In this document: positions 45,946 to 64,000 of the stretch, piece after piece
Position numbering within the stretch: the first letter of the stretch is position 1
Layout of the letters: every line of letters starts with the position of its first letter
Origin: Hydra vulgaris
Taxonomy: Eukaryota; Cnidaria; Hydrozoa; Anthoathecata; Hydridae
Reading direction: 5' to 3'
NCBI RefSeq assembly: GCF_038396675.1
Contig: NC_088922.1
Span: 9,007,001-9,071,000, forward strand
Length of the DNA: 64,000 bases
The notes under the pieces: generated by a model
The model's database searches: none
Told to the model about the DNA's origin: nothing
The model's input: only the letters and a program-made list of their open reading frames with translations
Translations under genes and position numbers: made by a program

Positions 45946-46236
45946 ATGACTGTCAAGTCATGACGCCTTAAGTCATGACGCGTCAAGTTATGACGCGTCA
46001 AGTCATGACGCGTCAAGTCATGACGCGTCAAGTCATGACGCGTCAAGTCATGACGCGTCAAGTCATGACGCGTCAAGTCATGACGCGTCAAGTCATGACG
46101 CGTCAAGTCATGACGCGTCAAGTCATGACGCGTCAAGTCATGACGCGCCAAGTCATGACGCGTCAAGTCATGACGCGTCAAGTCATAACGCGTCAAGTCA
46201 TGACGCGTCAAGTCATTTCGCGTCATCTTATGACGC
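45946..46236. repeat. 15-bp minisatellite GTCATGACGCGTCAA
   Basis: About 18-19 nearly identical copies, four per 60 bp without indels. Each unit is made of two overlapping palindromes (GTCATGAC and TGACGCGTCA), so the array is self-complementary throughout and holds two CpGs per unit. Because 15 is divisible by three, all frames without a stop stay open on both strands (MTRQV and RHDLT repeats); I do not call a gene. Confidence 0.95.
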
Positions 46237-50983: not shown

Positions 50984-51118
50984 ATGGCATTTGAAGATGA
51001 AGATATTAATGTTAGTACATCGAATTTGAATCCTGAATTTAATGCTTCTCAGGCTGAGCCTGAAATCCTTGTAAAGCTTTCTTCAAAAATGTTTTTTGAA
51101 GAAAGTGGAGAAATGTAA
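50984..51118 (+). CDS. 44-codon ORF truncated at the Ginger insertion; possible exon
   Basis: ATG at 50984 in the context TTTACTATGG starts an acidic reading frame (MAFEDEDINVSTSNLNPEF, then SQAEPEILVKLSS and FFEESGEM). It stays open until exactly the first bases of the Ginger left end, where TGTAAT supplies the stop. Coding-like composition ending at a transposon edge suggests a first exon disrupted by insertion. No family was recognised and no continuation lies in the window, since the right flank is outside. Confidence 0.3.
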   Translation: MAFEDEDINVSTSNLNPEFNASQAEPEILVKLSSKMFFEESGEM

Positions 51119-51690
51119 TAAAATATAACATCCGCCTAAAATATCACATCCCCCATAGAAAAACCGAAATCGAGAATGCGTTTTCAAGTTATTGCCCTTA
51201 GAAGTGTATCTAGTACGTCCGAAATATTTATGTACAAAAACAATAAAATTAAAAACGCAACGATCAAGATTCATAAAGCGGTTTGTAAATAATATACTAT
51301 AAATCATTATTTTAAATGTTACATAGGGAGATGTAATACTTTAGAAGTCTGAATAAGGGAGATGTGATATTTTACGTAGGAATTTCAGCTTCTTATTGTG
51401 ATATATATACAGATTACACCTGGGGGATGTGATATTTTAGATACCAAATACTAATACTTTGCAGTATTTAAAATAATACATAGGGAGATGTAATATTTTA
51501 GAAGCCTGAATAAGGGAGATGTGATATTTTACGTAGGAGTTTCAGCTTCTTATTGTGATATATATACAGATTACACATGGGGGATGTGATATTTTAGATA
51601 CCAAATACTAATACATTGCAGTATTTTAAATGTTACATAGGGGGATGTAATATTTTAGAAGCCTGGATAAGGGGATGTGATATTTTAAAG
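51114..51690. repeat. Left terminal inverted repeat with iterated motif
   Basis: Contains a 157-bp unit repeated about 2.4 times (starts 51321, 51478, 51635). Within it the word GGGRGATGTRATATTTTA occurs eight times, plus one inverted copy at 51136. The same words occur inverted in the right end (63735-63850). Iterated subterminal motifs are typical transposase-binding arrays (inference). Confidence 0.8.
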
Positions 51691-52777: not shown

Positions 52778-54190
52778 AAGTGAGAAAATTTACACACATT
52801 TTGAAACTCAACTGTTGATGTTGTAAATGCCAAAGTTACTTGTACACATAATGATAATAATAATATAAGAATAAAAACAATATTATATAAAATATATCAT
52901 TTTTTCATTTAGTTAAATAATGTTACCTTAAGGCAAAATACTCCAAATATTATACTGTCAGCTTGTTTAGCATGTGGCGATGTTAATATTCTAAACTTTT
53001 CAATAATACCATATCTCTGTTGTAAGTAACGACTGAAGTATAACAGTAGAAAAATTATAAAAGATGTAAAAACAAAATTTTGAGATACCAATCACTAGAT
53101 TAAAAAGTCATCATACTTCCATTTGGATTCTTCTTTTTTTATGGAATTAATCGGCTCTCCCATAGGGTTTATATAATGAATAGTTTTATCATCTGGTTTA
53201 ATTATCTAACTAATTTAATTAATAACTATCATTAATTATTTGCATTATACTTTAGCTAAGAGTTTGTGAATACCTCATGCCGTCTTTGTATTAAATCAGT
53301 ATTAATTGGCAACTCGTCCAGTGAGAGCAACCCAGCTGGTGACAATACTTCGATTCGATTCTTCACAGCATTAATAAATGGAATGACATTCAATTTATTG
53401 TTTTATATTTAAATTAAACTTTTTTTAATTTAAATAAGGACAAATTATTAATACTGTTTGTTTTGTACAAAAATTCAATTTTGAAGTATATTCATTAATC
53501 ATACTTTTTTTTTACTGTTTACTAGTAGTTTTAGATAAATATAAACAACTTCGTCACTGAGACATTCGTTTAAAGTGTCTTTAATGAATAATCATATATC
53601 TTGCAGCCACCTAAATCTGGATATATACCCATAATGGCTTTAACAGGGTTTACAATACGGAGATATTCTATCATTGACCTATTAATAAAATGTAATAATA
53701 ATTAATTATTCAAGCATACATTCATCAAATAAAATAACGTCAGTATTACATTTACAGAAGATAACATAATGTTATAAATATTTAGACCTTCTATTTTTTC
53801 ACCGGGTAGGGATAATGTTTAAAATTAATTTTTAGGTAAGTTTACATAGAAATCTTCACTTTACTAGTGCGCCACTGAAAAATATATACCTTTCACTATC
53901 TTCAACTATGCAGCTTTTTTTGTATATAATATCTCTAGAAAATTGCACATAAATTAAAATAAAAAGCCAACATGAAGATATTTGAAGAAAATTTTTTAAT
54001 ACATACCTTCACTATCTTCAATTACAGAGCTTTTTATTGTCTCCTCTGCCTTATTTGTCTCGTCTATAAAATTGAACATAAATATAAAATGATAGGCTAA
54101 CAAATATAAATGAAACTGTAATTATTTAATACATACCTTCACTGTCTTTAAATACGAAGCTTTTTATTGAATCTGCCTCCTCTACAAAAC

Positions 54191-54316
54191 AAACCATACA
54201 TTAAATAAAATGTTAACACTTATAAATTGTTAAAACCATACATTAAATAAAATGTTAACACTTATAAATTGTTAAAACCATACATTAAATAAAATGTTAA
54301 CACTTATAAAAATAAA
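54191..54316. repeat. 42-bp tandem repeat, three copies
   Basis: AAACCATACATTAAATAAAA starts at 54191, 54233 and 54275, giving exact 42-bp spacing. It is intronic in the Ginger gene, immediately 5' of the inserted LINE. Confidence 0.9.
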
Positions 54317-54329
54317 CACTTATTAATAG

Positions 54330-57300
54330 ATTCTATCTGTTGACCAGCTTCGCACCTCTTCTTCATCTATTAGGCTGGCGCAGATGTATTTTTAATACAT
54401 TGTTTCCAGTTTAGGATGTTGAATGGTGGATCTTCTTGACTCAATGCATGAGTTTTGCTTATGTCTCTGTTTTTATGACTAGGCAACTCATTCTATTATC
54501 TCCTAATGAGGGTACAGCTCTAAAACTCAGTTTTATGGTTCTGAGGCCGGCTGGTAGTCAGGTTTCTCGAACTCTGTGGTAGCTCTCAGAGAGGCTGATT
54601 CAATCAACAGGTGAAAAATATCAAAGTAGTAACAGTGCCATGTTGCGCATGGATGGTGTCCCTGATTTTACTTTTGGTGTGCATTGCGAAAGCCACATTT
54701 GGAGCCCTTTGTTACGGCTTAGGGCTTAAAAATCACCCATTTGTCGTGAAACTAGGTTTAAATCCACAGACTATTCTTTCATGTGCTTTCGTTTAGCACC
54801 ACTTCACTCTATTTCCTATCTCTATGTTCTATATTGCTCTCCTTCATCTCAAGACTGCACTCTTTTTGATGTTATTTCTGATCATATTGACCAAGTCCTC
54901 TCTCTTTATCCATCAGCTAATATAGTTGTTGTCGATGACTTTAATGCTCGCCACTCTGAATGGCTTGGCTCTAGTGTCAGTGACTCTGCAGGCATTAAAG
55001 CCCACAACTTTTTCCTTTCTCAATCCGTAACTCAAATAATCAACTTTCCAACTCGCTTTCCTGACAACCCGAATCATCTACCTTCTCTACTCGACTTATG
55101 TCTTGTTTCTGATCCTAGTCAGTGCTCAGTTTCTCCACATTCACCCTTAGGTTCTTCTGATCACAGTTTGATCTCTCTAAAACTAATATCTCATTCTTCT
55201 TCATCACCTGAATCCCCCTATTATCGAACCTTTTACAACTACAGTAAAGCTGACTGGGATTCTTTCCGTGATTTTCTTCGTGATGGCCCTTGGGTAGAAA
55301 TCTTTCGTCTTCCTGTCGACAAATGTGCTTCTTACATAACTTCGTGGATTCAGGCTGGCATGGAATCTTTTATTCCCTCTCGACGATTTCAGGTCAAGCC
55401 TCACTCTCCTCCATGGTTTTCCTTACGCTGTGCTGCTGCGATTGCCAATCGAAACCGTTACTTCCATATTTATTAGCAAAACAATTCTCCAGAAAACAGA
55501 CGTCTGTTTATTACTGCTAGAAACAATTGTAAAAAGGTTTTGTCTAACGCCAAAACCCGCTATTCTCAAGTCAAGAAATCTCGTATCTCATCTCAAAAAT
55601 TACGCTCTCGCGACTTCTGGAGAATCTTTAATAATATCAATAATAAGGGCAAATCTGTAATTCCACCTCTCTTGTATGGTTAAGACTTTGTCACCTCACC
55701 TAAAGACAAAGCCGAATTGTTTGCTAAAAACCTTTCATCAATATCATCTCTTGATTCCATTAGTTGCATTTTACCTGATATTGCCAACAAACAGGTTGAT
55801 CCATTGCTTGACATTCATATCACTCCAGCATCTGTATCTAAAGTGATTTCCTGCCCAGACTCTTCTACAGCTTGTAGCCCAGACAACATACCTGTTATTG
55901 TCTTGCAGAAGTGTTCTCCGGAGCTGTCATCGATACTCTCAAAACTATTCAACAAGTGCTTATCAGAGTCTTGTTTTCCAGCCTGCTGGAGAGCGGCATC
56001 TGTTATCCCTATTTTCAAAAATTCTGGAGAGCAATATGATTCATCTAACTACCGTCCCATAAGTCTTCTTCCTATCATAAGCAAGGTTTTTGAATTTTTA
56101 ATCAACAAACACTTAATTTCTCATCTTGAATCTAATAACTTCCTTTCTTTCCATTAATATGGATTTCGATCTTCTCGTTCTACAGCTGATTTGCTAACAA
56201 TATTAACTGACAGGTTTTATCGTGCATTAGATGAAGGTGGAGAGGTTAAGGCCATTGCTCTTGACATTTTAAAAGCTTTTGATAAAGTTTGGCATGCTGG
56301 TTTTCTCCATAAGCTTTCTTCTTATAGTGTATTCGGCAACATCTTTAAGATCATTGAATCCTTCCTTTCCAATCGTAGCATTAAAGTTGTCCTCGATGGA
56401 CAACACTCTTCTTCTTATTCTGTAACTTCAGGGGTTCCTCAAGGTTCTATCCTTGGCCCTATATTCTTTTTAATTTACATTAACAATCTTCCAGATATTC
56501 TGACATCTAAGGTGGCATTGTTTGCTGATGATACTATTATTTATTCTTGTTGTGATAAGAAACCAGCACCCTCTGATTGCTTGGAGGGGGCATTTGAGCT
56601 TGAAAAGGATCTCACTTCTGCTACAGCATGGGGCTCACAGTGACTGGTGAACTTTAATTTAGATAAAACTCAATTTTTTTCAGTTAATCGTTATCGAAAT
56701 AATTTAGATCTACTTATATTTATGAATGGTGATGCACTCGATGAGTCACCTACTCTTCATCTTCTAGGATTAACTCTTACTTCCAATCTTTCTTGGAAAC
56801 CATACATCAAATCAGTTGCAAAATTAGCATCTGCTAAGGTTGCATCTCTTTATCGAGCTCGTCACTATCTTACTTCGGATTCTATTCTCTATCTCTATAA
56901 ATCTCAAATCCGGCCTTGTATGGAATACTGTTGCCATATCTGGGGCGGATCTTCTAATGATGCCCTTTCTTTTTTAGACAAGGTGCAAAAACGCATTGTA
57001 AACATAGTTGGACCTGCTCTTGCAGCCAACCTCCAACCATTATCACATCGTCGTAATGTTGCTTCTCTTTCTCTTTTCTACAAATACTATAATAGGCACT
57101 GCTCTAAAGAGCTAGCGTCTCTTGTGCCATCTACTAAAATTCATTCTCGTGTTACTCGTCATTCAAATAAGTGTCATCCTTTTTCTGTGACTGTTCCTAA
57201 GTGTTCCAAAAACGCTTATTTGTCTAGTTTTTTTCCTCGAGCATCAGTTCTTTGGAATTCGCTTCCTTCATCTTGCTTTCCTGATTCATATAATTTGCAA

Positions 57301-57420
57301 TCTTTTAAGTCGTCCGTCAATCGTTATCGTGCTCTACAATCTTTATCTTTTCTCTTTCAGTAACCTCTAACTTTAATTAGTGGCTGCTTGCAGCCTTGTT
57401 GGAAGCGAAGATGTTTGAAA
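54330..57420 (+). mobile_element. Non-LTR retrotransposon (CR1/Jockey-like LINE), 5'-truncated
   Basis: About 3.1 kb ending GTTGGAAGCGAAGATGTTTG plus an A-rich tail. It contains most of ORF2 and a rearranged 5' part (54330-54780). The insertion is in an intron of the opposite-strand Ginger gene, between two repeat exons. Fragments of the same family occur at 1.03-1.55 kb and probably 15.0-15.5 kb, so the family has been repeatedly active. Confidence 0.85.
54781..57363 (+). pseudogene. LINE ORF2 (endonuclease-reverse transcriptase), four in-frame stops
   Basis: A single reading frame spans 861 codons. The endonuclease C-terminal half shows VVVDDFNARHSEWLG (usually GDFNAHH) and GSSDHSLIS (SDH catalytic motif). 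The reverse transcriptase shows SSNYRPISLLPIISKVFE, IALDILKAFDKVWH (first catalytic Asp), SGVPQGSILGP and VALFADDTIIY (FADD catalytic pair). The tail has CMEYCCHIWGGSS and RASVLWNSLPSSCFPDS. Stops are at 55474 (TAG), 55681 (TAA), 56156 (TAA) and 56641 (TGA), with no frameshift seen. At least three could be single transitions of Gln or Trp codons. The N-terminal endonuclease residues are missing because of 5' truncation. Confidence 0.9.
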
Positions 57421-58837
57421 AAAAAAATAATAAAAAGGTAGTTTTTTATTACATACCTTCACTATCTTTAACTAGAAAGCTTTTTATTGTCTTCTCTGCC
57501 TTATTTGCCTCTAAAAAATTGGATAGAAATTAAAATAAAAAGGTAACAAATATAAATGCAAATGTAATTTTTTAAGACATACCCTCACTATCTTTAACTA
57601 CAAAGCTTTTAATTATCTGCTCTGCCTTATTTTCTAGAAAATTGAACAAAAAATATGGAAAAAAAATGCTAAGCAGACCAAAAGTTGAAACATACAAAGG
57701 AAATCTGTTGTTACTATTTACCCTTTATGCTTTCCACCGATGAATGTTTTTTTTTCTATTTCATTTTTTGTTGTAATTGTTTCTAAAGTAGAGGCGACAA
57801 AAGTCTTTCAAATTAGAAAAAATTGGTAGTCTAGCAATAATATTCATGAAACTCTTTAGCTTTCTTTTTAAAAGTTAAAAAAGGTAGTTATTGGAAAACA
57901 TGTATATAAGTTGTGCGCATACCTTTATCACAAATGCCTTCGAGAAATTTCTTAACTTGGGCTCTTTTGTGGGTTCCTTTTATAATAACTTTATTACTAC
58001 TCAGTTTGTAATTTCCACATTTTGTAATATCGCTTACTTCATAAGGTCCTTTAAACCGTGGCTTAAAAGCTGCGCTTTTACTTCTCCTCCCTCTAATATC
58101 AAGAAACAAAACTTTGTCCCCAATTTCAATGCATTCTTCCTTAGATTTGATATTTTTGTGAAACTCTTTTATCGTAATATTTTTTTTGATTCTTTTGAGC
58201 TTCTGTAATGTTCTAAAATTTATAACTATTGTAATTAGAAAAAAAAAAAAAAAAAAGATAGTATCTTAAAAATTAAATTAAAGTTAAGTGGTATAAGTGA
58301 TTACTTTAGTGACCAAATTGGTTAAGTTTTCAATATGAATTTTATTTTTTTCGATTTCAGCTTTAACTTCATCTTCATTTGCGGGGAAAATACCGACCTC
58401 CTAATTAACAATGCATACTGGTATTGGTATACTAAATTATGAGTGTAAAGTAAATATAATTGCTTAAAATGATATCCAAATATACTTACTTCTTTGAACT
58501 CACTTCTGCAAACAGGTGAACGACGACCAAACATCAACTCAAAAGGTGACACTTTTGTAGACGTTTGTTTTTCAATTCGTAATGGATATAAAACTATATC
58601 TAGAAACTGATCCCAGTTTGACTGGTTTTTGTCGACGAGTTTTCTGATTTTTCTAATTAACGTAATTTCAAAATAATGATGTTATTATCATTACTTTATT
58701 TTGAACTTAAACAATCATAAAATAATGCACACCTTTTTATATTTTTATTTGTATTTTCATCTTCCATTTGTTTGAGGGTGATAAACAGCAGTTCTTCGTC
58801 GTTCGATACCCAAGATCTTATATACCTCATCGTTTAA

Positions 58838-59440
<603 letters not shown>

Positions 59441-59699: not shown

Positions 59700-62350
59700 T
59701 TTTTTAAAGCCATTTAAGTTTTCAAGGTTAATAATATTTTGATTAAGTAATAAAAACTTATTTCAGATATGAGGTGCACGATAAGTAATTTTAAATTGCA
59801 CAAGCTTAGTTTTGCATGAAGGCTCAAAAAGGGTACTATTTGTGCGCAACAGGTATTTATACTCTGGCTTTTGTTTATAAAGACTATAGAAAATTGAAGG
59901 AGTTTTTTGCATTTTACTATTATACATAAGACTTAGAACATTATATATATTTAGTTCAAACAATGTTAGTAAAGACATCTGTTCAAAAAGAGGCTTTGTG
60001 TGTTCGTTTTTATTTTTAAAATTAATTACTCGTACAGCATGCTTCTGTTTACGATAGAGAGGTTCTAGTTTGCTTTTATAGCTACTACCCCATGCTGTAT
60101 TGCCGTAATTTAAATAACTTTGAACAAAACTATAGTAGATTTGTTTGAGTAGCGGCTTTTTCAATAAATGGCGTGATCGGTATATTATTCCGATACTTTT
60201 AGATATTTTACTACTTAAATAGGCGAAATGTTTATTCCAATTTAGATTTTCGTCAATAAAAACACCTAAAAATTTAGTAACATTATCTCTACTTATTTCT
60301 CTATTTTCAATAAACAATTTTGGACGAGAAGATTCAACTTCTTTTTTTTATAAGAAGGATGAAATAAAGAAAACTTCGTTTTACTTAAGTTAATAGAAAG
60401 TTTATTTGCCCTAAACCATCCAGATTTTTTTTCTAATTCTTGATTCATTTCTACGCACAGTTCGTTTATAATTTTTCCGGAGATAAAAAAGTTGCTATCA
60501 TCAGCAAACATTAGAGTTGAAATTCTTTTTGATGCCCGATAGAGATCGTTAACGTAGATTAAAAAAAGTAAAGGCCCAAGTATTGAACCCTGAGGAACAC
60601 CACGCTTTAATATGGAAGGATTAGAGAGTTTATTATCTCCATAGTATATAGATTGCACACGTTTATCTAGCTAGGTTTCTATCCATTTGTTCGTTCTACC
60701 CCTTATGCCATACATGTTAATTGATAATGATATTTTGTGGTCGACTGTATCAAAAGCCTTAGAGAGATCTATGAATACACCTAATGTAACTTCTCCGTTT
60801 GTAAAAGAGTTTTTTATTTCATCAACTAGGTGAAGGATTGCGTGTTCAGCTGATGTATTTTTTTGAAAGCCGAATTGCTTGGAGTAAATAAAATTATTTT
60901 CTTTAAAAAAAGTATATACTCTATTGTGCATAATTCTCTCAAGTATCTTTGAGAATGTAGAAAGTATTGATATTGGTCTGTAATTGCCTATTTCACTTGT
61001 ATCTCCTGATTTAAAAATAGGTTTTACTTTCTCAGTTTTCAGTTTTTCAGGAAAGATACCTTCCTCTAAGGAGTGTTTAAATATTTTAAATAAAGGAACT
61101 TTAAGCTCGTTTTGGCAATTAATTATAATGTTGCTATTGATGTCGTCGATTCCGGTTGCTTTGTTTCTTTTTAGGCTTTTAAAAGCATTGTTAAATTCTA
61201 ACATGTTTAGTTTTTCGTTATTCAATTCATTTTTATTACGATCTAAATATTTATCAAAAGATTTATTTGCACTAGGAACTTGGGAAGCAAGTTTAGATCC
61301 TATATTAACAAAGAAGTTGTTAAACTCATTTGCAATGACGTTTTCATCATGAATTGTTTTGTGGTAGATTTTTATAGTTTTAGGAAAGCACGGTTTGTTA
61401 ATTTTTGGTTTACCAATAATTTCATTTAATAATTCCCATGTTTTCCTAGAATCTGTTTGACACTTATCAAGTAGTTTATTATAATAATTAGCTATAGCGG
61501 TTTTTTTAATTTTCTCAAAGAGACTTGCATAACTCTTGTATTCCGATTTTGTTTTATCGTATTTTTTTTAAGGTACTTTATATATAATCGTTGTTTCCGC
61601 TTAGATGATTTTTTAAGACCTTTACTCAACCAAGGTGAATTTATGTCTTTAAATTTAATTGTTTTTACTACTTTGGGAAAGTGTTTATCATAAAGAAATA
61701 CAAAAATATATATAAAGGTATTATACATTAAATTGGTATCATTTGAGAATTCTAAATTTGACCAATCAATATTGGCTAACTCACTTTTAAAGTTAACCTG
61801 GCTATCCAAAGAAAAATGTCGCCTTGTGCTTGTTTTTTTTTCATTTATTTTAATTTTATTTGAGGTACTTATTGAAATAAATATCGGAAAGTGATCCGAT
61901 ATAGATGTTTTAATTACTCCTTTCTTTAAGGAGATTTCAAATAAAGAATTTGTTTGTATATTATCTATTAGTGTTGCCGAATTTTTTGTAATTCGGGTTG
62001 GTTTATTTATAAGAAGAATTACACCAAATTGAAATAAATTATGCTAAAAACTTTGTGTTTCTATATTATTTTCATAATTTAGAGCATTAAGATTAAAATC
62101 TTCTAGGATAAATAATTTTTTTTTTTTTTAATTTATTTCATCTGGAAACATGTAAGGTGTTTCCATATTCATTAATGAAAAGTTATCAATAAAATTTTTG
62201 TCAAGGTCATATTTATCAAAAGTATTTTGATCATTTATTTTAAAAACCTTATCTGAAATGTTTTCAAACATTTCAGATAAGGTTTTCAAAAAGACTTTCG
62301 TATTCAAACGTTTTCGGATTCATTTTAAAGGGCTTCGTTATTGATATATT
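59700..62350 (-). pseudogene. LINE ORF2 (endonuclease-reverse transcriptase), frameshifted
   Basis: In order: endonuclease remnants with ILEDFNLNAL and TSISDHFPIFIS (SDH motif). A linker follows with FKDINSPWLSKGLKK (61809-61492). RT part one has NKATGIDDINSNI, GNYRPISILSTFSKILER and LGVFIDLSKAFDTVDHK (61225-60671). RT part two has GVPQGSILGPLLFLIYVNDL and LMFADDSNFF (60658-60293). The tail has FLGVFIDENLNWNKH, LNYGNTAWGS and KQKHAVRVI (60317-59763). All catalytic motifs are readable; at least four frame changes separate the parts. It resembles CR1/L2-type ORF2. Confidence 0.85.
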
Positions 62351-62416
62351 ATCAATAAAAATATCCAAAAAAAATAAATAAGAATTAAATAAACCGTAAA
62401 TAAAATAAGTAAAAAA

Positions 62417-63198
62417 TTAATTTTTATTTGTCTTCCACTCGCGTACAATAAGCTTGTCGTATGATATGTAAGCAAATTTTCCCAACTTTCTTTCAATTTT
62501 CATTTTTTCACGCAATTCCTTTCTTATTTTATTCGTTTCCATGCAGTAATCTTCGTTTATATATATATTTTTTTCTTTTAACTTTGAGGCATTTCTTAAA
62601 ATTTCCTCCTTATCTTTAAAGTCCAATAATTTCAGAACAATTGTTCTGTTCTCTTTTAGACCTTTTTTACCAGCTCTATGTGCTCTTTCAATTTTTACAT
62701 TTTCTACACCCAAGTACTCATTAAATATTTCTTTTACTTTTTGTTCGCTTTCCAGCCAGATTTCATTATCATCTTCTTTAATTCCGTCAACTCTTAGATT
62801 GTTCCTCCTTGTTCTATCTTCAATTTCTCTTAGCTTACTGTTAATTTTTTTGAGGTCAGTGTTGTTATTTTGTATTTCATTATGGTTAAATTTATTTTTT
62901 ATGAAAATATCTAACGAATTTTTTATTTTTTTTTCAATAAGTTCCTCATGAAAATTTAGACTAAACTTTATTTCTTCAACTTCTGCTGTCAGTGTTGATA
63001 TTTTTTTAGCGTTCTCTAAAATATTTTTTTCTACTTTGTCTAATCTTTCGTTTAAGATTTTGGTATTTGAACTAACGATACTTATAAAGTTGCTTTCTTG
63101 TTGCTTTACCGCTGCTTCCGTCTCCACTTTGTAGTTTGTAAACAAGTCTTTAAATTAGTCCTAATCATTTTTTTAATTTCAACAAGTGTAACTGCCAT
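62417..63198 (-). pseudogene. LINE ORF1 protein (coiled coil plus RRM-like), one frameshift
   Basis: The ATG at 63198 begins MAVTLVEIKKMIRTN. A one-base deletion near 63146 shifts to the main frame, which is then open for 242 codons to the stop at 62417. The main frame itself starts with TTG, so it needs the upstream ATG. About 100 residues of heptad-like coiled coil (LNERLDKVEKNILEN..., IKNSLDIFIKN) precede DRTRRNNLRVDGIKE, the hallmark entry to the L1 ORF1p RRM. KIERAHRAGKK and a basic C-terminal domain follow. ORF1 proteins form trimers that coat element RNA. Confidence 0.85.
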
Positions 63199-63734
63199 AG
63201 TATCAATAATATTTATTACTACTATTAATTTAAAAGTTTTTTGTTAATATATATAAAACAATTTTTTGTCCTAAGTTATTATTACTTTTTTTTTTTTTTT
63301 TCTTCTTTGTAAATTTTCAACTTGCAAAAACACGTCCGCTCGTTACAGTAACCACGAACGTTTTTTTCAAACTCAGTTCCATTGTCAGTAAGTATGACGG
63401 ATGGAAAACCAAAGGTTGTAACTAAACTTATAATCGCTCTTGCTACCGTTATTGCTTCCTTATTTCGTAATGCGTAAGCAATAGGCCATTTAGAAAATAA
63501 ATCGGTGCAACTCATAAAGTATCTGTTACCCATTGATGTTTTAGTAAATGGTCCAGCGAAGTCTAAACTAATAATTTCCCATACTCTTGTGGTCTAAACA
63601 CAAAATTTCAACATAATGCAACATAACAAAGTAAACATAATACATTATACATTCGTACTATGTACTAAATTAAAGATTCCGAATTCTAGAAAGATATTTA
63701 AAAACACTTTATTAAGTTACCTTAATGGAATGTA

Positions 63735-64000
63735 AAGGTATCACATCTCCCTTATTCAGGCTTCTAAAATATTACATCTCCCTATGTAACATTTAAAATA
63801 ATGAAAAGTATTAGTATTTGGTATCTAAAATATCACATCCCCCATGTGTAATCTATATAATTATTGTCACGCAATATATTAAGATCAAAATTTCATAAGT
63901 ATGAATTTAAAATATATTACCATTTAATGCTAACTTCATTTATAGTATATTATTTACAAACCGCTTTATGAATCTTGATCGTTGCGTTTTTAATTTTATT
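63735..64000. repeat. Right terminal inverted repeat of the Ginger-like element (incomplete)
   Basis: The inverse of parts of 51242-51530: TCACATCTCCCTTATTCAGG at 63740, TCACATCCCCC at 63832, and a continuous match from about 63945 to the edge. It has one iteron unit instead of the left end's 2.4. The last bases of the element lie outside the window. Confidence 0.8.

Follow-up and report, generated by a model that had tools for sequence, protein, structure and literature searches.

The window analysed here, a stretch of 64,000 nucleotides (nt) of the Hydra vulgaris genome (C3:9007001-9071000), carries on its minus strand a copy of a Ginger1-like DNA transposon, whose transposase gene holds a row of short, similar exons between its GPY/F exon and the first exon of a Ulp1-like part. 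An earlier note on this DNA had described the row as a spliced minisatellite of five mini-exons in a Ginger-like gene. We confirmed five similar minus-strand mini-exons (u1-u5), each preceded by AG and followed by GT, and found one further mini-exon upstream (u0) that had been missed. The long interspersed nuclear element (LINE) that interrupts the row is listed together with its reverse transcriptase (RT) frames.

57722..57782, minus strand: u0, the first mini-exon in the row; 61 nt with a frameshift in the window copy, whereas several other copies have it open at 66 nt
57583..57633, minus strand: u1 mini-exon; 51 nt; 54 nt in other frame-keeping copies
57457..57510, minus strand: u2 mini-exon; 54 nt
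54182..57456: u2-u3 intron; 3275 nt here and 71 nt in copy L010; contains in this copy a 42-bp triplicate (54191-54316) and, on the plus strand, a LINE (RT frames 54730-57363)
54137..54181, minus strand: u3 mini-exon; 45 nt
54007..54063, minus strand: u4 mini-exon; 57 nt
53890..53934, minus strand: u5, last mini-exon; 45 nt here, 46 nt in all 27 tabulated copies

Positions 53992-54176 and 57442-57620 share 83.8% identity across 185 bp, far beyond chance (E = 1.7e-48), and the intron ends ahead of u1, u2, u4 and u5 are repeats of one another, which bears out the proposal that the duplicated unit is an exon plus its intron. Introns of 72-74 nt had been reported; three of the four gaps agree (u1-u2, 72 nt; u3-u4, 73 nt; u4-u5, 72 nt), whereas the fourth, u2-u3, reaches 3275 nt because it contains the LINE and the 42-bp triplicate. 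The 42-bp repeat is the acceptor half of the u2-u3 intron, triplicated in the window copy and single in L010, and the LINE (RVT_1, E = 6.8e-20) matches at least 39 further genomic places at 96%, its 3' part recurring in the window at 1038-1561 (90%). The claim that exon lengths are multiples of three with phase-1 junctions on both sides holds for the middle units but fails for u5, which in the main family is asymmetric (46 nt, phase 1 to phase 2) and is compensated by its neighbour; in the window, the loss of a single base (45 vs 46 nt) shifts its frame. Compared by eye at its end (HSLVESIK vs SFVVKDSE), u0 is possibly a diverged unit. Given that the window copy is broken by two LINE inserts, frameshifts and the absence of its H2C2 part, its units alone cannot prove an exon array, and other copies were needed.

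We therefore searched the genome (15 contigs, 911.5 Mb) for other copies. At the DNA level, the GPY/F exon plus the first units served as query, and the best 40 of 73 candidates scored gave 30 loci, one being the window copy; at the protein level, the GPY/F exon (81 matches, 30 loci) added four places. The array region was read in 33 copies besides the window's (L010-L038, L050, L062, L065 and L067), and the complete set u0-u5 was present in 27 of them. Among the remainder, L033 has seven units and L024 four, one common deletion removes u1-u5 in L037, L038 and L065, and the array is interrupted within u3 in L067. The 27 complete copies are not all independent, since six lie in tandem on C4 and two more, on C3, mirror each other. 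In L010, the exons from u0 to u5 measure 66, 54, 54, 45, 57 and 46 nt and the introns between them 94, 72, 71, 73 and 72 nt. A conceptual join of these six exons to the GPY/F end before them and the first Ulp1-like exon after them gives 201 codons with no stop. The expected length class was kept in 14, 24, 27, 25, 26 and 27 of the 27 copies for u0 to u5, respectively, and all six exons were open with canonical splice sites in 8 copies, four of which have no readable first Ulp1-like exon. After six duplicates were dropped, 254 of 264 splice dinucleotides in 22 copies were AG or GT, a count in which u4 of L033 is misaligned. Chance AG/GT matches in the A+T-rich repeats of a dead element could be imagined from the window itself, which has 29% G+C and a broken copy; identical boundaries in 27 of 33 other copies and the recurrence of u5-type exons in other families contradict this explanation, and we regard it as scarcely credible.

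At C4:17.876-17.963 Mb, six copies (L021-L023 and L025-L027) lie about 9 kb apart and have a common u0 frameshift. The element end is present there once on the plus strand, at 17875982, and at intervals of about 9 kb on the minus strand; the common frameshift and the end spacing suggest that the whole transposon was amplified head to tail here and not by transposition. On C3, L015 (C3:48006591) and L014 (C3:48127351) are near-identical, in opposite orientation and about 120 kb apart, an arrangement resembling a mirrored segmental duplication. The three copies with one u1-u5 deletion (L037, L038 and L065) lie on C9 and C8, and thus the shortened form may have been mobile.

As the earlier note had anticipated, unit number changes in frame. 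L024 has lost two units and carries a 54-nt hybrid exon that starts as u2 and ends as u4, while L033 has gained a 45-nt unit that starts as u5 and continues into a u4-type intron; both new exons are in frame with AG/GT, and both exchanges fall inside exon stretches common to the units. Such change is rare among the copies read, and the word minisatellite overstates the case because 27 of the 33 hold the same six exons. The units are interchangeable in phase, and any subset of them keeps the frame because all middle units are phase 1/1, as would suit alternative splicing in which units are optional or mutually exclusive and each mRNA holds one or a few; yet alternative cassettes typically differ more in length and sequence, and the units look like a series of repeats, and we consider this explanation unlikely.

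Related families were then compared. The sister family (L073, L074, L077 and L078) has four middle units in L073, L077 and L078 and one in L074. In a unit tree of main- and sister-family units (about 120 nt per unit, modest support), each position grouped across main-family copies and u0 and u5 joined their sister-family counterparts, whereas the middle units of the two families were mostly separate. In families A (L071, L075, L076, L082 and L083) and B (L079, L080, L081 and L084), the interval from the GPY/F exon to the Ulp1-like exon holds three mini-exons. The six measured in these outgroups are phase 1/1, with lengths of 84, 72 and 45 nt in A (L075, L076) and 63, 66 and 63 nt in B (L079), and the last resembles u5 (DRAVTKKSCIVEDSE; ...SKSCVIKNND). 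Some outgroup copies are not open, the first mini-exon of L071 having lost one base and the second of L075 five; L072 has a 45-nt u5-like exon (VVTDTKKSCLIEDLK), of which the L070 version is one base shorter. Relatives lacking the unit had been named as a possible refutation, and the outcome is mixed: the outgroups indeed lack the array, yet in its position they hold single phase-1/1 mini-exons, the last of them u5-like. Main-family u1-u4 resemble u5 in both exon and intron. Because the outgroups have three single mini-exons of which the last is u5-like, the row probably grew as a u5-type exon was amplified ahead of the split between the main and sister families, after which units continued to turn over in each.

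The evidence that the units are spliced is comparative: canonical sites, phase 1/1, an excess of exon identity and a frame-restoring change together argue for it. In 6 of the 8 pairs compared between families, the exons were more alike than either flank; for u5 of the main family and A the identity was 0.83, against 0.53 and 0.59 in the flanks and a mean of 0.50 in random intron pairs (95% point, 0.58). In the main family, u5 is one base longer (27 of 27 copies), and the following exon is four bases shorter at its start than in L071, L075, L077, L078 and L079 (all 21 copies in which it could be read). These changes of +1 and -4 nt across the last intron restore the frame only if both exons are joined, which fits the joining of u5 to the next exon. 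The same change tells against a repeat that works at the DNA level, as binding sites or as an unstable satellite, with merely incidental open frames: frame and splice sites have been kept, and a single u5-type exon persists even where the introns of a family can no longer be aligned. Although the element also has non-coding tandem repeats (157 bp near its 3' end and the 42-bp triplicate) and its within-family substitutions lack coding constraint, we find such a repeat very improbable. A tandemly duplicated, spliced mini-exon set in the transposase gene of a Ginger1-like DNA transposon is, in our judgement, quite probably what the row represents.

Several results weigh against a spliced exon set. 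Two of the 8 between-family pairs (u0 main-A and u5 main-B) had no exon excess, and exon limits in the relatives were set by eye, guided by splice sites and frame. The last exon of the sister family (37 nt in L074, 47 nt in the other three copies) misfits the phase of the next exon; we read the phase as one that would fit if the acceptor lay 2 nt further in. In the main family, u0 has lost the frame in 13 of the 27 copies, and L033 is damaged elsewhere, with an AT donor at u1 and u0 and the last u5 out of frame. A search with the u1-u2 junction for a spliced retrocopy returned 0 matches, and in a second search, covering the best 40 of 54 candidates, no match listed spanned two whole exons, so that proof of splicing by retrocopy was abandoned after both. 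Constraint at the amino-acid level, tested in the 22 copies, gave no signal: shared variants comprised 16 nonsynonymous (22.8 expected) and 3 synonymous (6.6 expected) changes, and singletons 59 (57.0 expected) and 12 (16.1 expected), respectively. Selection on amino acids within the family is hence not claimed.

The other parts of the element in the window are as follows.

63350..63593, minus strand: integrase core exon (rve); Pfam rve 35.6 bits (cut-off 32.6), E = 1.2e-8; 3' limit approximate
57923..58208, minus strand: GPY/F exon (FKGPYEV); ends in phase 1 and carries a stop here; 5' limit approximate
53517..53678, minus strand: first exon of the Ulp1-like part; broken here, Ulp1 by motif only; 3' limit approximate
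52912..53205, minus strand: further Ulp1-like pieces; NPMGEP, and IFGVFC here but SCGVFC in L010
52217..52513, minus strand: PHD-like pieces; CRICG ... RWYHIGC, by eye
51114..51304, minus strand: 3' terminal inverted repeat; about 190 bp, outer end TGTAATAAAATA

The GPY/F exon scored 13.1 bits against Pfam SH3_Tf2-1, below the cut-off of 30, and its FKGPYEV motif was read in the translation. H2C2 (PF17921) was detected in L010 at 26.9 bits (cut-off 25.5) and is absent from the window copy, where the 5' repeat adjoins the integrase exon. The Ulp1 and PHD readings rest on motifs that we take to mark these domains (HW, and SCGVFC in L010, for Ulp1). Pfam searches matched neither the Ulp1-like exon pieces nor the PHD-like pieces, a profile search of the Ulp1-like part against PDB returned no C48 relative (best match HAB1, E = 0.041, unrelated), and none of the places listed in a genome-wide PF02902 search is a place of the family. 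Ulp1 thus found no support from any of these profiles and stays a motif reading.

The 5' end of the window copy lies outside the window, 128 bases past base 64000, and from there to 51114 the copy spans 13,015 bp including its inserts, with TTTC flanking both sides. The element ends begin TGTAA; allowing at most one mismatch, the end sequence is present 92 times in the genome (control, 0), and three copies delimited by paired ends measure 9.49 kb (C8), 9.44 kb (C1) and 9.64 kb (C2). Inside the inverted repeats stand 157-bp tandem repeats (51305-51687 and 63739-63860) with GGGGGATGTGATATTTTA-like motifs, possibly binding sites of the transposase. A second LINE-like element (59763-63154, minus strand; RT-like frames with FADD, by eye) lies between the integrase exons and adjoins a TA repeat at 59237-59439. 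Elsewhere in the window, at 45952-46236, nineteen copies of a 15-bp repeat are open in several frames on both strands.

Ginger1 of Hydra is described, in the available text of Bao, Kapitonov and Jurka (2010, PMC2836005), as having an integrase-like transposase with H2C2, DDE and GPY/F parts, in several families a C-terminal Ulp1 with or without PHD, terminal inverted repeats of 40-270 bp beginning TGTNR, and a 4-bp target duplication of CCGG or CCGT/ACGG. The likeness here comprises rve and H2C2 that pass Pfam cut-offs and inverted repeats (TGTAATAAAATA, about 190 bp) within that description, with GPY/F and Ulp1/PHD as candidate parts read by motif; the window copy is flanked by TTTC. The differences are in size (up to 7.1 kb for Ginger1 in that text, about 9.4-9.6 kb in our three paired-end copies), in introns (0 to 4 in the Hydra Ginger1 families of its Table 1, more here, including the mini-exon row) and in target: the CCGG or CCGT/ACGG given there was not found, a genome-wide search for MCGK before the element end yielding a single match, which has one mismatch (CCGC). 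Judged by these sequence features, the element is Ginger1-like, as the earlier note had it in calling the gene Ginger-like; it is filed so, and not as Ginger1, because the CCGG-type target was tested and was absent.

The row also resembles other systems. Like tandem exon duplications (available text of PMC9013439), it consists of neighbouring exons copied with their intron, in the same phase and with splice sites kept, and adjacent homologous exons of equal phase with kept splice sites, by which such duplications are recognised, are found here. It differs in that it stands in a many-copy transposon family, with gain and loss visible between copies, and is known from DNA alone. Schistosoma micro-exon genes likewise have many short exons; as far as the accessible text of PMC10526429 describes them, they encode secreted proteins and have long introns, whereas here the short exons are duplicates of each other, separated by introns of about 72 nt. 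Our survey of the literature (titles and the starts of abstracts, subscription papers being mostly outside reach) found no such exon row in a transposase.

With regard to origin and function, u1-u4 would have arisen by copying of a u5-type exon together with its intron, and units have since recombined inside common exon stretches, with two lost in L024 and one gained in L033, each new unit being in frame. All units would be spliced into the mRNA and give about 15-22 residues each, and the product may be a charged linker with a repeated hydrophobic-then-acidic core (KSFVVKDSE, KSCIVEDSE). The most economical reading we infer is a flexible, multivalent tether, which would join the DNA-cutting (integrase) half to the protease-like half. 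A more speculative step is that the cores bind SUMO. SUMO-interacting motifs centre on four residues, three or more of them hydrophobic, with acidic residues or serine alongside, and are multiple in some SENP proteases (both from the available text of PMC12751080). The likeness to that description lies in repeated hydrophobic cores with acidic residues or serine, beside a protease part read as SUMO-class by motif; the difference is that some units have only two hydrophobic core residues, and binding is putative. Compared by eye, SFVV, SFLV and SCIV fit if phenylalanine and cysteine count, while SSVV and SLVE have two hydrophobics. It is a doubtful, though conceivable, extension that the row is a tunable series, in which unequal exchange between mini-exons sets the number of SUMO-binding motifs lying between the integrase and the deSUMOylase-like part and hence the pull of the transposase to SUMO-carrying chromatin.

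As a rule, a tandem exon duplication is observed a single time, in one gene. The row described here occurs in dozens of copies and several related families, which lets gain, loss, hybrid units and the compensating change of frame be followed directly in DNA. If the units are spliced in, the copies would offer a natural series for studying what a repeated linker motif does to a transposase, and for asking whether the SUMO-class protease parts known from several transposon families cooperate with SUMO-binding motifs.
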